Source: Terriglobia bacterium (GTDB lineage: Bacteria > Acidobacteriota > Terriglobia > Terriglobales > Acidobacteriaceae). From it: 64,000 bases of DNA. The translations under genes were made by a program, and so were the position numbers. How positions within the stretch are numbered: position 1 is the stretch's first letter; every line of letters begins with the position of its first letter. Below, in pieces: positions 50,107-60,635 of this stretch. The stretch is from assembly GCA_020073185.1 (NCBI GenBank), contig JAIQFT010000011.1, forward strand, positions 75,765 to 139,764. Reading direction: 5' to 3'. The notes beneath the pieces are model-generated. The model worked only from the letters and a program-made list of their open reading frames with translations, did no database searches and was not told where the DNA came from.

Positions 50107-51552
50107 GTGGAACCTACTCAGGCGGAGCAGTTGCTCGACATGGCGGCGGTACACGCCTTCTACGTCGAACTGCTGGAAACCGTGCTCGGTCATCCCTTGC
50201 CCGTGCCGCATGAAGTCTCGATCGGCGCCGCCGGCGGTGCGGTAGAGCAATCCATCACCGGACTGGGGCGCTGGCTGAACTTACTCGACCTGGCGATCAC
50301 GCCGCCCATGATGCGCGACGCGCTCAAGGAATCCACCACGGAGGAAACGGCCGAGGCCTTGCTCCGCCACTTCGTGCGCAAGGGGTCGCACTCCGACGCC
50401 GATCGTGACAAGGGTGACTTCATTGTCACCTTCCTCTATCGTTCGCTGGTCCCCGCAGGCAAGCAGATCCCCGCGGAAATGATCGTGGACGAGCCGTCGG
50501 AATTTGAGCAGGGGCTCTACACCATCATCGGCTCGGAGGAATCCGCCGTTCTCCCGGAAGAGCATCGCCAGCTCGTGCGCGAGTTCCCCTTCGTTCGCCA
50601 GGAAGTGGATGACTACCGCCACTTCGACCAGCTCATGGATTCCGGCATCATCCAGCGCGTGCGCGACATCAAACAGCGCCTCGGCGAATCGTTTTATCAT
50701 CCCCGCGTGCTGGCTACCATCGCCGCCTACAACGTCTATTTCGGAAGCCGCTTCGACGAGCTGTTCAAGCAAACCACGCAGCAGATCAAGAAATTCGCCA
50801 GCAACGTGCAGCAACAGGGCGGCAGCATCATGAGCCGCGTGGATGGCGACGTTACCGTCCAGCACCTCACCGAGGTCGAACAGCAGGAAACCGAGCTTCT
50901 GCAGACGGAGTACGGCCGCGCCCAGGAGCATTTCCGCAAGATCTCGAAATTGAAGAAGGCGGTGGACTCGCGCACCGGCGCGCGTCCTCATGTCGCAGGT
51001 GTTGCCGCCCACGCACCCGCTGCGCAACCACGCACCGGGAATGTGGCGGGCGCCGGCGAGGCGGCGCTCTCCGGCATCAACTTCCCCATCGCACAAGGCA
51101 AGCTGCGCGCCATGGAAGATTCCATCCGCAACTTCGTCCTCGCCGCCGACCCAAAGTCGGCCAACGTGATTCCGCTGCGCAACGGCAATATGGTGCTCAG
51201 CAGCGTCGAAGTAGACGCTTTCCGCAGCGATTACAGCGCCGAAAAGAGCTTCCGCGCCGACTACGCCAGGGCTCTGCGCCAAACCGTTTCCATCCAGGCA
51301 TGTCTCCAGTTGGAGTTGCAGGAATACAGCTCGAAACAGAGCTCGGCGTATCTATGGAAGCCGCACGCCGACGCGCTAGCCTTCCTCATTAGTACCGCAC
51401 AAAGACTTCAGGCGCAGTGCGGCGCCATTCTGGCGACTGCGGAACAGCGTGGTCTGGCCGACAAGGTCACTGCCATGAATGGCTCGCTGCAGAAGACGCG
51501 TCAGGAAGTGCAGCTCGCCGTCAATGCGTTGCAGGAGAATGGAAACTCATAG
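50107..51552 (+). CDS. 481-aa helical protein of unknown function
   Basis: GTG start with a GGGAG ribosome site. Mostly alpha-helical and soluble, with no signal or membrane segment. Middle part (about 190-300) is Gln/Glu-rich and coiled-coil prone (QTTQQIKKFASNVQQQGG; HLTEVEQQETELLQTEY). A short Ala/Pro-rich linker (about 303-320) separates it from a second helical domain. No catalytic motif recognised. Neighbours, an acyl-CoA dehydrogenase and a PilZ protein, give no functional clue. Confidence 0.75.
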   Translation: MEPTQAEQLLDMAAVHAFYVELLETVLGHPLPVPHEVSIGAAGGAVEQSITGLGRWLNLLDLAITPPMMRDALKESTTEETAEALLRHFVRKGSHSDADRDKGDFIVTFLYRSLVPAGKQIPAEMIVDEPSEFEQGLYTIIGSEESAVLPEEHRQLVREFPFVRQEVDDYRHFDQLMDSGIIQRVRDIKQRLGESFYHPRVLATIAAYNVYFGSRFDELFKQTTQQIKKFASNVQQQGGSIMSRVDGDVTVQHLTEVEQQETELLQTEYGRAQEHFRKISKLKKAVDSRTGARPHVAGVAAHAPAAQPRTGNVAGAGEAALSGINFPIAQGKLRAMEDSIRNFVLAADPKSANVIPLRNGNMVLSSVEVDAFRSDYSAEKSFRADYARALRQTVSIQACLQLELQEYSSKQSSAYLWKPHADALAFLISTAQRLQAQCGAILATAEQRGLADKVTAMNGSLQKTRQEVQLAVNALQENGNS

Positions 51553-54167: not shown

Positions 54168-54183
54168 TGGCACGGCGGTTGCA
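54168..54183 (+). promoter_or_regulatory. sigma-54 promoter (-24/-12)
   Basis: TGGCACG-GCGG-TTGCA, an exact match to TGGCACG-N4-TTGC, with the initiation site expected about 54195 and the gene start 43 bases later. Confidence 0.88.
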
Positions 54184-54237
54184 ACTATTCCCGACTGAAA
54201 CGGGGTTCAAGAATTCAAATTCACGAGGGGGATGGAT

Positions 54238-54516
54238 ATGCAAAAGAAATCTCTAATCAAGAGCCGGGCGGCTGCCAAGAAGGCGTTGCTGGCTTCCAAG
54301 AAAACCGGCCGCCTCACGGGTACAACCAAGGGCGAGTCGCTGACCGCAAGCCGGCTTGCCCAGAGCAGGCTGGCCGAGAGCAAGCTGGCGGAGAGCAAAA
54401 TGGCCCAGAGCAGGCTGGCCGAGAGCAAGCTGGCCGAGAGCCGGCTGGCGGAGAGCAAGCTGGCCGAGAGCAAGTTCGCGGAGAGCAAGTTCGCCGAGAG
54501 CAAGCTGGCCGAATAA
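54238..54516 (+). CDS. pentapeptide-repeat small protein under sigma-54 control
   Basis: 92 aa from the second ATG; GAGGGGG stands six bases before it, while the ATG at 54232 abuts it. The N-terminus is strongly basic (KKSLIKSRAAAKKALLASKK). The rest is eleven exact-length pentapeptides S-(K/R)-(L/M/F)-A-(E/Q). L/F exchange at the central position and a small residue two before it fit the pentapeptide-repeat beta-helix pattern, though K/R replaces the usual D/N. No signal peptide, no Cys. Could be a structural or DNA-mimic protein, or a substrate of the adjacent M50/HlyD operon. Function unknown. Confidence 0.8.
   Translation: MQKKSLIKSRAAAKKALLASKKTGRLTGTTKGESLTASRLAQSRLAESKLAESKMAQSRLAESKLAESRLAESKLAESKFAESKFAESKLAE
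54349..54513 (+). repeat. eleven tandem 15-bp coding repeats
   Basis: Units of the form AGC-(AAG/AGG/CGG)-(CTG/TTC/ATG)-GC(C/G)-GAG, 165 bases, no spacers. Silent third-position differences between units suggest the array is maintained at the protein level. Confidence 0.85.
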
Positions 54517-54610
54517 GCGATTCGCACACCGGAAGGTACACCGAGACGGGCTGCATGCCATGTGCAGCCCGTATTTTCTGGCGAGCACGGCAGCAGCTGC
54601 CCGGCGCAAC

Positions 54611-57683: not shown

Positions 57684-60068
57684 TCACCATCCAAACCAGC
57701 TCCACAGCTTCGTCCACAGCCACATGCCGAAGCCGCGGAAGATCACGTATCCCGCCGGTTTCCAGCCCGCGCTCAACTTCGACATCCCCGACATGCCCGG
57801 CCGGATAATTCCTTCGGGATTCGGAATGTCTACGCGCGCGAAGTACACGCGCTTGTCCTCATGCGCCTGGCTCGCCGGGCTGACGATGTCTACACGCCCC
57901 ACAAAGCGCCGTAGCGGGAAGCTGTCCAGCTTCACCACCGCTTTCTCGCCCGCCTCCAACAACGGCACGTCGCTTTGGTCCACGGCGACGTCCACCGTGG
58001 CATGCGAGGTATTGATTACCTTCGCGAAGCTGTCGCCGGCGTCCAGCTTGGTGCCGGCCAGCGTTTCGACGTGCGCCGTTGCCACAACCCCGTCAATCGG
58101 CGAACGGAGCTTGGTGCGCTCCAGGCGTTCGCGCGCGCGGTTGGTTTCCGCCGTCCAGTACTCCGCCTGCACCCGCTGGATGCCCGCCTCGCCGCCGTCA
58201 TTGGCCGCCAGGGCGCGGTTCATCGCTGCCACGGAGGTTTCGCGCCGCGCCAGCGCCGCCGCCAGCGCCGCCCGGTAATCCCAGTCGTCCAGGTCGGCCA
58301 GGATCGTCCCCTTGGCGACGCGATCCCCCTCGTGTACGTACACCTTGTGGACGACTCCTTCCGCCTCCGCCTGGATTTCGGCGCTGCTCTGCGACGCCAC
58401 CGTCGCGTCGCCGGCGACGCGCATCGGCAGCGGCACGAATATCAGAAAAAGGATGGTGGCGGCTGCCAGCGCTACATAGGCTCCGCGCCGCTTTTTCTCC
58501 ATCGCCATGAACTGCTTTTTCTTCTGAATGATCGGTTCCAGCACGCCGATCAACGGCACCTCTTCGTACAGCGACGCGTTGCGCAGGGCCACGGTCGCCT
58601 GCGATGCCACCACGTTGATGAACTCGAAATGCGCCTCGTTCAGGAAGTCGGGGTTCGTGCTCTCAAACGACAGCACTCCCAGCTTGCCCTGGTCATCGGC
58701 CAACGACACCGAGTACCACCCGCGCGCGCCGGATTCCTTGAAGTACGCGAAGAACTTCTGGCGCGTTTCCTCGCGGTCCGCTTCCACCGTGCCCTCGTGC
58801 GCCACCACGTGCAGCGGCTTGTCGTACTGGGCGGAGAATTCCAGCACCGCGCGCAGTTGGCGCATTGCCGGATCGCTCTGCACCACCTCCGCCACCCCCG
58901 AGACCGCCTTCAACTGCAGCTTCCCCTTGTTCTCCAGTGCGACCGCGGCGCGGTCGTAGCTCATGATTCGCTGCGGGGCGTTCACCACCACCTGCAGCAC
59001 GCGCTCCAGGTTCAGCGTCGAGGTGATCTCGTTGCTCACCGCGACCAGCGTCTCCAGGATCTCGATCTTTTTCTCCGCCTCCATCAGGCTGGCGTTGTGC
59101 AACGCTCCGGAGGCGGTCTGTGCCATCATCGTGAGGAAGAAAAGGTCGTCTTCATCGAACGCCGTGCCGTCATCCTTGTTGACGCATTCCAGCACCCCCA
59201 CCAGCGCCTCTTGGTGCACGATCGGCGCCGCCATGAGCCCAACGATCTTTCCTTCTTCCACGTCTCCGTTGCGTTTTGCCAGCCGCGGATCATCGGCGTC
59301 GGCGATGACAATCGCCTCGCCCGTGTCGCCCATTTCCTTCACGATGGCTTCGGTGCCGCTCTCCAGCGCCAACGTCTCGTCGACACCGTCGCGCGCCATC
59401 AGCAGCAGGTCCTCGTCTCCGACCATATAAAGATTGACCGCCTGCGTGTTCAGCAGTTCGCGGACCTTGGCACAGATGATCGGCATCAGTTCGCTCATTT
59501 GCAGCGTGGAATTGAATACTTTTTCCACGTCGTAGAGCTGCGTCAGCCGCGTGATCGAATCCAGGTTGCTGTTGCGCTCGTTCTCGTACGCTAGGCCGGT
59601 GGCCAGCGCCAGTGCCGACAGTTCCGTCAACCCGTTCAGCGTCTCGATATCGTTGTCGTCCAGCTCCCGCTCGAAACTGACAGCCTCGATCGCGCCCACC
59701 AGCACTTCGTCCAGCAGGATGGGAACGTAGGCCAGCGAGGCAATCGTCCGCCGCACGTCCAGGTGCGCGTAGTGTTCCCGCACCACAGACGTCCCGGAGT
59801 ACAGCAGCGGCTCGCGTTTCTCCGCCACCTTGGCCAGCGTCGCCGCCTCCTTCGTCGACTCCACCGCTGCTTCGCCCACCCGGCCCTTCACCACCCAGGC
59901 CGGGCTTTCGTCCTCGTTGTACAGGTAGACATTAATGGCGCAGCCTTCAAGCAGGGCGGCGGCTTCGCTGGCGATAACTTGCGCGCGCGGCGTGACCTCG
60001 CGCTCCGCCAGCAGTTGGCCGGCGAAATCGCCTTGGGGCGTCGAAAGAGCGGGCCTTTGCGTCGCCAT
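57684..60068 (-). CDS. triple-GAF / membrane helix / HlyD fusion protein
   Basis: 794 aa from the ATG at 60068 (GAGGAG seven bases before). Three GAF-like sensor domains in the cytoplasm (about 25-170, 185-340, 350-500), one membrane helix (about 527-547, YVALAAATILFLIFVPLPM), then a HlyD-type lipoyl/hairpin/barrel region on the outer side (about 560-770). Joining cytoplasmic sensors to a periplasmic adaptor in one chain suggests ligand-gated control of export. First gene of the three-gene operon, with a sigma-70 promoter upstream. Confidence 0.85.
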   Translation of the reverse strand: MATQRPALSTPQGDFAGQLLAEREVTPRAQVIASEAAALLEGCAINVYLYNEDESPAWVVKGRVGEAAVESTKEAATLAKVAEKREPLLYSGTSVVREHYAHLDVRRTIASLAYVPILLDEVLVGAIEAVSFERELDDNDIETLNGLTELSALALATGLAYENERNSNLDSITRLTQLYDVEKVFNSTLQMSELMPIICAKVRELLNTQAVNLYMVGDEDLLLMARDGVDETLALESGTEAIVKEMGDTGEAIVIADADDPRLAKRNGDVEEGKIVGLMAAPIVHQEALVGVLECVNKDDGTAFDEDDLFFLTMMAQTASGALHNASLMEAEKKIEILETLVAVSNEITSTLNLERVLQVVVNAPQRIMSYDRAAVALENKGKLQLKAVSGVAEVVQSDPAMRQLRAVLEFSAQYDKPLHVVAHEGTVEADREETRQKFFAYFKESGARGWYSVSLADDQGKLGVLSFESTNPDFLNEAHFEFINVVASQATVALRNASLYEEVPLIGVLEPIIQKKKQFMAMEKKRRGAYVALAAATILFLIFVPLPMRVAGDATVASQSSAEIQAEAEGVVHKVYVHEGDRVAKGTILADLDDWDYRAALAAALARRETSVAAMNRALAANDGGEAGIQRVQAEYWTAETNRARERLERTKLRSPIDGVVATAHVETLAGTKLDAGDSFAKVINTSHATVDVAVDQSDVPLLEAGEKAVVKLDSFPLRRFVGRVDIVSPASQAHEDKRVYFARVDIPNPEGIIRPGMSGMSKLSAGWKPAGYVIFRGFGMWLWTKLWSWFGW

Positions 60069-60200: not shown

Positions 60201-60272
60201 CGAATGCCGCCGTCCGCGCCCGCTTCGCAAAAATGTTGGTCGACTTGCCATTTTGGGACCCGGAGGGTTTTC

Positions 60273-60635
60273 GTGGATATCGATGTTCGCAAGTTCGGCA
60301 AGGTGCACGTAATCAGGTTAAGAGGACATTTGAAGCTCGGCGAAGCCGTGGACGAACTCCGCTCTACCCTTGACGGCATCATCGCCGAATCCAGCTTCTC
60401 TGCCGTGCTGAACATGACCGAAGTTCCCATGGCCGATTCCAGCGGCGTCGGCGTCCTCGTCCGCTACCAGTCCATGCTCAAGCAGAAGGGCGGCGCCCTC
60501 AAGCTGGTCAACCCATCGAAACTGGTTTCGCAGACGCTGAAAATTCTCGGGCTGCTCAGTGTTTTCGAGGTCTTCCAGGACGATACCGCCGCCGTCCAAT
60601 CCTTCAGCCCGGAAACCGCCGCCACCGCCGGGTGA
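60273..60635 (+). CDS. STAS-domain protein (anti-sigma-factor antagonist type)
   Basis: 120 aa from the GTG at 60273 (GGAGGG five bases upstream). Single STAS domain: VHVIRLRGHLKLGEAVDEL, VLNMTEVPMADSSGVGVLVRY (Ser of the SpoIIAA phosphorylation motif DSSG), LKLVNPSKLVSQTLKILGL. Such proteins bind anti-sigma kinases or act as scaffold switches. Divergent from the GAF/HlyD operon, so regulation may be shared. No RsbW-type kinase gene is in the window. Confidence 0.87.
   Translation: MDIDVRKFGKVHVIRLRGHLKLGEAVDELRSTLDGIIAESSFSAVLNMTEVPMADSSGVGVLVRYQSMLKQKGGALKLVNPSKLVSQTLKILGLLSVFEVFQDDTAAVQSFSPETAATAG

Follow-up and report, generated by a model that had tools for sequence, protein, structure and literature searches.

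What is made from a small gene that encodes a basic N-terminal region followed by eleven near-identical pentapeptides, and which of its neighbours handle the product? The gene lies in what is here called the window, the whole stretch of 64,000 nucleotides analysed from contig JAIQFT010000011.1 of a Terriglobia bacterium. None of the libraries scanned, Pfam, NCBIfam and PHROGs among them, names the repeat family, and a search by title and start of abstract for literature on the locus, its parts and its analogues (openly accessible papers, preprints being outside the scope) gave no description of it. The answer towards which we lean is that the gene product is a leader-bearing, multi-copy peptide precursor, which would be read and processed or exported by a fusion protein with PqqD-like, M50 protease and HlyD parts (hereafter M50HlyD) that is encoded beside it.

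A coding gene with a promoter-like site

The initial annotation had pointed to eleven near-identical pentapeptides in a 92-aa ORF, and this turned out to be correct: the array belongs to a real small protein, and the translation also bears out the strongly basic N-terminal part. Counted from the first ATG, the ORF (54232-54516, forward strand) is 94 aa long. That annotation had started from the ATG at 54238, the second one, which gives 92 aa, has GAGGGGG at the usual distance upstream and is the likelier start. Tandem Repeats Finder describes the DNA of the array as 10.6 copies of a 15-nt period with a score of 206, the top of the 30 rows obtained for the window. The leader is kept in homologues, a sigma-54-type site lies upstream and a terminator-like hairpin downstream (Table 1), which argues that the small ORF is a gene and not a chance frame. 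Matches of the 92-aa protein in PHROGs (best 2.4e-6, tail fiber) and in the PDB (best 0.0042) look compositional.

Table 1. Features of the repeat locus, numbered from the first nucleotide of the window
Feature	Position	Strand	Evidence and remarks
Sigma-54 activator, 468 aa	52611..54017	+	Weak receiver match, AAA+, Fis-type HTH
Sigma-54 (-24/-12) promoter-like site TGGCACggcggTTGC	54168..54182	+	10/10 core matches
Small repeat-protein gene, 92 aa	54238..54516	+	In-frame alternative ATG at 54232
Basic leader region, residues 1-37	54238..54348	+	Conserved; K3, K4, S5, L6, I7, K15, A16 and A19 invariant among 26 aligned leaders
Eleven tandem S[KR][LMF]A[EQ] units, residues 38-92	54349..54513	+	Tandem Repeats Finder, translation, pN/pS
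Terminator-like hairpin between convergent genes	54546..54572	+	2 such sites in the region, against a mean of 1.0 in shuffles
PqqD-like + M50 (HExxH, NPxxxxDG) + HlyD fusion, 716 aa	54611..56761	-	Domain searches, motifs, fold searches
HlyD/RND-type adaptor, ~292 aa	56758..57636	-	Longest ORF begins at 57723; lipobox-like start by eye
GAF + HlyD protein, 794 aa	57684..60068	-	Membrane helix between GAF and HlyD by eye
STAS-domain protein	60204..60635	+	Relative in 23/29 loci, place varies

The promoter-like site is not a peculiarity of the window. Among 74 members of the family, which are distinct proteins gathered with leader patterns chosen after inspection (66 KKS-type and 8 other), 66 have a -24/-12-type site with at least 8 of 10 core matches within 200 bp upstream, mostly at 60-95 bp, whereas such a score was reached by 150 of 3000 random 200-bp stretches of the same loci. 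Sites of this type were found upstream of the GAF-HlyD gene in 0/23 cases, of the activator in 1/29 and of M50HlyD in 1/24. Because the site is enriched at the small gene and rare upstream of its neighbours, the likely target of sigma-54 among the genes tested is the small one.

One leader, many repeats

The family has the leader consensus KKSLIxxRxxxKKAxxA (invariant residues in Table 1), behind which the tandem units vary greatly from one species to the next. The same N-terminus was met with different repeats in a search of 61 genomes and with a profile of the first residues run against 300 genomes of the same family. The units include SKLAE in the window, NSPLS, NLTRGSA, GPAGSV, DSASGTGL, QGGGGL, GNVAS and AADAGSM, the last being common to three genomes of one genus, and further LSGAKG, SKGGAL, LKPGA, APNKL, NQPLLK, KAPAKLAA and others. 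In the genus of the window, four species were found with four unrelated units, and the activator is 87-90% shared among the three of these species that have the whole neighbourhood. Tandem repeats with periods of 3-15 residues occur in 62 of the 74 members as against 0/74 shuffled sequences, and the remaining 12 are without a clear tandem repeat. The 3405 repeat residues contain no W or Y and 3 C, and by eye no residue pattern or cleavage motif is common to the listed units of different species. A conserved leader with a variable core, as asked of a RiPP precursor, is thus what was found. Four hits of the 61-genome search were set aside as chance repeat matches, three judged from their ORFs (G036:C63, G036:C77 and G056:C164) and G002:C8 from its row alone.

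These bodies bear on two proposals for what the protein does. The initial annotation had likened the array to a pentapeptide-repeat beta-helix with alternately basic and acidic faces, and there is a likeness to proteins of that kind (PF00805, PF13599) in the five-residue unit with its central L/M/F and in weak Pfam matches (PF13599 E 6.8e-6, PF00805 E 0.0011). However, the pentapeptide models stay below their gathering cut-offs on the 92-aa protein (26.5 vs 38 bits and 18.9 vs 20.2 bits), unit length in the present family ranges from 3 to 15 with period 5 in 12 of the 62 periodic members (74 examined), and many units are Gly- or Pro-rich. AlphaFold2 on the single sequence gave helices at 3-23 and 31-91 and no strand (mean pLDDT 88.7, pTM 0.47), which, being obtained without an alignment, is weak evidence. 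The beta-helix was thus not borne out, and we give it practically no credence. Since none of the other members read displayed the K/R-E pattern, alternating charged faces are also unlikely to be a function common to the family.

Basic nucleic-acid-binding proteins of the histone-H1/AlgP sort offer the second comparison, and a cytoplasmic protein of this kind would suit the basic leader and the roughly one K or R per unit in many arrays. However, the charge is neutral or acidic in several arrays (NSPLS, GPAGSV, AADAGSM, DSASGTGL) and the gene is linked to envelope genes, and we hold such a role to be very improbable.

The variety extends to the leaders and to the nature of the bodies. An SGAKGL array (L052:9554-10033) matches Pfam Collagen (PF01391, E 6.9e-23), so some bodies could form collagen-like chains. 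A second leader type (xxIxLTxEQxxxIRxATGxxIxxxKVE-like) was seen beside M50HlyD at L135:5739-6269, L136:8292-8729, L137:8264-8839, L133 and L138, followed in 3 of these 5 loci by RKAPL or RANPL repeats of 12-13 residues. A third, Lys-rich leader precedes LQRGT, LQRAS or LQRGAGV units (L148:8260-8559, L130:3208-3369, L129:6317-6499). Near distant M50HlyD relatives there are tiny ORFs with a LEERIAP/LEEKIAP motif, three in L188 (8032-8669) and one, with LEEKIAP, in L144 (~5482), one of these ORFs ending in GSANPE repeats; they may represent another class of leader served by the same machine.

Selection within the arrays

It had been suggested in the initial annotation, from silent codon variation between units, that selection acts on the protein, and this can now be put in numbers: in the window array pS is 0.44 and pN 0.126, a ratio of 0.29. 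Between the units of one array, pN/pS was below 1 in all 47 strong arrays (those of the 74 members with a repeat score of 20 or more), with a median of 0.15 and highest values of 0.58 and 0.64, and eight arrays had no amino-acid change at pS of 0.23-0.71. Since silent sites have drifted while residues were held, most units are not fresh copies. Selection against DNA repetition could add silent variety, but it cannot hold residues. A short tandem DNA repeat is present, as it would be if the array were a translated, functionless product of slippage; the ratios in all 47 arrays, among them the eight without any amino-acid change, contradict this, and promoter-like site, leader and locus are conserved, so that we find slippage scarcely credible.

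Genes that travel with the array

The genes stand in a fixed order of sigma-54 activator, repeat gene, convergent M50HlyD gene, HlyD-type adaptor and GAF-HlyD. In the loci read, the activator gene lies beside the small gene in 29/29 and in the same direction in 28/29, the activator being divergent in L063; in L058 the activator match is split. The convergent M50HlyD, adaptor and GAF-HlyD genes all fall within 24 of the 29 stretches. No modifying enzyme, radical SAM included, was recognised among 13 neighbouring proteins of the window, six of which were also compared with NCBIfam, and the same 13 proteins contained no ABC transporter that could serve with an HlyD adaptor as in type I secretion. 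Neither a receptor nor an immunity gene was recognised among the genes examined. One of the 13, encoded by a 481-aa ORF (50107-51552), has no Pfam or NCBIfam match and was found again in two loci of the same genus, L013 and L014. In another genome an ORF of 2356 aa, whose start looks signal-like by eye, adjoins the activator (L015:11648-18718, G021).

The presence of activator, GAF and STAS genes, and of a sigma-54-type site that among the genes tested is common only at the small gene, would agree with a small protein that is not secreted and acts as a regulatory ligand or decoy (pseudo-substrate) of the M50 protease in an envelope-sensing circuit with GAF-HlyD and STAS. Such a ligand would need neither hypervariability nor many unit copies, and the HlyD modules point to transport; we therefore judge this role improbable.

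A homolog search, which the initial annotation had proposed, finds the gene in 55 of 300 sampled genomes of the family, 29 by the leader profile and 26 beside an M50HlyD gene, when the two 300-genome samples behind these counts are taken as one set. M50HlyD itself is present in 59/300 family genomes, which include 28 of the 29 leader-positive ones; the exception (G315) has the small gene at a contig end. A diverged leader-repeat gene adjoins M50HlyD in 26 of the 31 other holders. The five holders in which the gene was not seen are four with contig ends (G137, G141, G296, G323) and G170, where the convergent interval is present and no leader-repeat gene was seen in it.

The association was also followed among named genomes, where an alignment scan with M50HlyD gave 79 loci among the best 80 of 480 matches, 74 of the 79 being titled Acidobacteriota or subgroups, Edaphobacter lichenicola and Granulicella strains included. 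Where the convergent interval was complete (57 named loci), a script located the small gene in 56, and inspection by eye added L120, whose protein the script had missed owing to a long open frame upstream; 50 of the 57 leaders are KKS-type and 7 other. Two genomes carry two M50HlyD copies (G118: L219 and L224; G095: L065 and L234), and each copy adjoins a leader-repeat gene with a different unit.

Further away the association thins out. Class-wide, the leader matched in 6/299 genomes, five of them in the family of the window, and a search for related loci based on the leader retained none. Of 12 stretches that surround more distant relatives of M50HlyD, one, L178, has a clear repeat ORF (SGKSL units, at a contig end), and L188 has short GSANPE repeats. 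No repeat ORF was seen in L139, L140 and L142-L147, nor in most of the more distant loci scanned. The distant L181 has the interval with only a 34-aa Lys-rich ORF without repeats.

The partner protein and its co-variation with the unit

PqqD-like domains bind precursor leaders in RiPP systems. The N-terminal domain of M50HlyD is predicted to be beta3-alpha3, an order of elements that fits a PqqD-like/RRE fold, and PqqD was its commonest Pfam match (6 of 19 members, best 2.7e-6). The window protein reaches E 0.0031, below cut-off, and a PDB profile search gave weak matches with PqqD as the first two (E 0.29 and 0.36), so for this protein the PqqD assignment is weak. In the protease motifs HExxH and NPxxxxDG, residues H222, E223, H226, N319, P320, D325 and G326 are invariant in 31/31 proteins, and Pfam M50 is found at E <=0.01 in 30/31, with 0.066 for the window protein itself. 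Fold searches with the whole 716-aa model have HlyD/MexA/MacA adaptor and biotinyl-domain folds among the matches listed; such a search barely probed the PqqD-like and M50 parts, and PqqD is not among the VIA matches listed. In NCBIfam, two models connected with the M50 proteases of epipeptide and daptide systems, NF041824 (E 4.4e-36, 124.8 vs 300) and NF058609 (E 1.4e-5, 24.9 vs 225), matched far below cut-off.

Co-variation of unit and partner was examined in the 44 of 58 loci that have a unit (946 pairs), with identities of activator, GAF-HlyD and HlyD domain as the only control for relatedness. Similarity of units tracked the PqqD-like (r 0.193) and M50 (r 0.197) domains, a level reached in 0 of 1000 permutations each, and did not correlate with the HlyD domain (235/1000 permutations, 99/500 in a separate run; 78/1000 with KKS-type loci only). 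The signal held at 1/1000 each when only the 914 pairs below an activator identity of 0.75 were taken, with activator and GAF-HlyD as controls. GAF-HlyD also tracks the unit weakly once the activator is accounted for (r 0.125, 6/500). With r of about 0.2, the unit co-varies weakly with the PqqD-M50 part. The leader was not supported as the part tracked by the PqqD-like domain (218/1000) or M50 (149/1000); it tracks the HlyD domain (8/1000) and above all GAF-HlyD (r 0.507, 0/1000), which is probably shared descent.

The M50HlyD tree conflicts with that of GAF-HlyD, as seen in quick trees, built without a mixture model, of 40 of the 44 loci (L129, L135, L137 and L148 dropped). By GAF-HlyD, L057 (NQPLLK) pairs with L080 (KPAI) as its sister (100). 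M50HlyD instead places L057 with L056 (NKLAP, 99) and L080 with L054 and L109 (PAVR, RPAARAAS; 99). Likewise, L086 and L090 are sisters by GAF-HlyD (100) and are joined by M50HlyD to L096 and L082 (100 each). In AU tests, for which the clades were picked after viewing the trees, M50HlyD rejected both GAF-type pairs (p 3e-80 and 7e-14), and GAF-HlyD rejected three of four M50HlyD-type pairs (L056+L057 0.00031, L082+L090 0.0138, L086+L096 0.0213) and did not reject L054+L080 (p 0.0565). The units of the partners are alike in some cases (KPAI, PAVR) and not obviously so in others (GTLRA, ARPAV). The window, L012 and L013 stay together in the M50HlyD tree (86), and thus fast divergence may explain the variety of that genus without exchange.

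Co-variation could also arise if the leader were removed in a single cut and the intact repeat domain served as a surface polymer, structural or adhesive, which the PqqD-M50 part would grip during export. The low-complexity bodies without W or Y in 3405 residues, the collagen-like body of L052 (E 6.9e-23) and the HlyD-type adaptors adjoining the gene are in its favour. The family, however, shares neither periodicity nor charge, some arrays are just ~16-30 residues long, and it is not obvious why a polymer should call for units with such similar sequences. We consider this explanation rather unlikely.

Discussion

The multi-copy precursor is the reading that we hold with somewhat more belief than doubt. 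In the mechanism proposed for it, the adjoining sigma-54 activator would switch on the small gene, and the conserved basic leader would mark the chain for the envelope machinery of the locus, with the tandem units as payload. The PqqD-like (RRE-like) domain and the M50 protease would read the repeat units, M50 would cut the chain at the leader and probably also within the units, and the fused HlyD part together with the adaptor and GAF-HlyD proteins would pass the product across the envelope. Units within one array would be kept alike because they must fit one partner, and unit and M50HlyD gene would change together between species. No cleavage motif is common to units from different species, so that a protease which cuts every unit would have to change its specificity along with the unit. 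The analysis shows the locus, the leader, the repeats, selection on the residues, the promoter-like site and the co-variation; that the activator switches the gene on, that the chain is recognised, cut and exported, and that it serves as a species-specific secreted peptide is what we infer.

The evolutionary signature of the repeat family is unusual, and the strong selection that keeps the units of one array the same, together with their wide turnover from species to species, is suggestive of a recognition code. What we see in soil Acidobacteria looks like an unrecognised bacterial way of making or exporting species-specific peptides. More tentatively, and with doubt prevailing, the sigma-54-controlled, leader-guided precursor may belong to a new bacterial peptide identity system, in which the unit and the RRE-M50-HlyD protease-exporter would be exchanged between lineages as one specificity cassette within a fixed frame, so that most species would have a short secreted peptide of their own. 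Should the units be released, they would form a large unexplored set of natural peptides of soil Acidobacteria with the processing machine encoded alongside. Some carriers are named strains (Edaphobacter lichenicola, Granulicella), and the system gives direct experimental access to the reading of a hypervariable substrate by a membrane protease.

Several known systems share parts of this arrangement. In staphylococcal agr, a hypervariable peptide precursor and a membrane protease change together in a conserved frame; in contrast, no co-varying receptor was found here, the units are in tandem and the protease is unrelated. The TigB-type RiPP precursor (NF047709) is bacterial and has short repeats, and the AADAGSM protein of L049 matches it weakly (E 2.8e-8), but the score of 33.6 bits against a cut-off of 70 is possibly compositional, and no radical SAM gene was recognised in the window locus.

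The epipeptide and daptide systems resemble the locus in having a small precursor beside a membrane M50 protease, and in the former the M50 protease EpeP probably both cuts the epipeptide and exports it, according to PMC10885120. They differ from it in that no radical SAM or other modifying enzyme was recognised in the window locus, in the fusion of M50 to PqqD-like and HlyD parts, and in the tandem-array payload.

The fungal Kex2-processed repeat proteins (KEPs), yeast alpha-factor included, carry repeated cores within the protein with great variety between species, according to PMC7329392. A Kex2-type precursor has a constant protease site between copies, which is not seen in the present units by eye, and the present family is bacterial, with M50HlyD in place of signal peptide and Kex2 and with sigma-54-type control. 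KEPs as described in PMC7329392 resemble the proposed precursor in that an export signal precedes many copies of one short core, that these cores are highly diverse, and that some kinds occur without the accompanying DUF3328 cyclisation genes.
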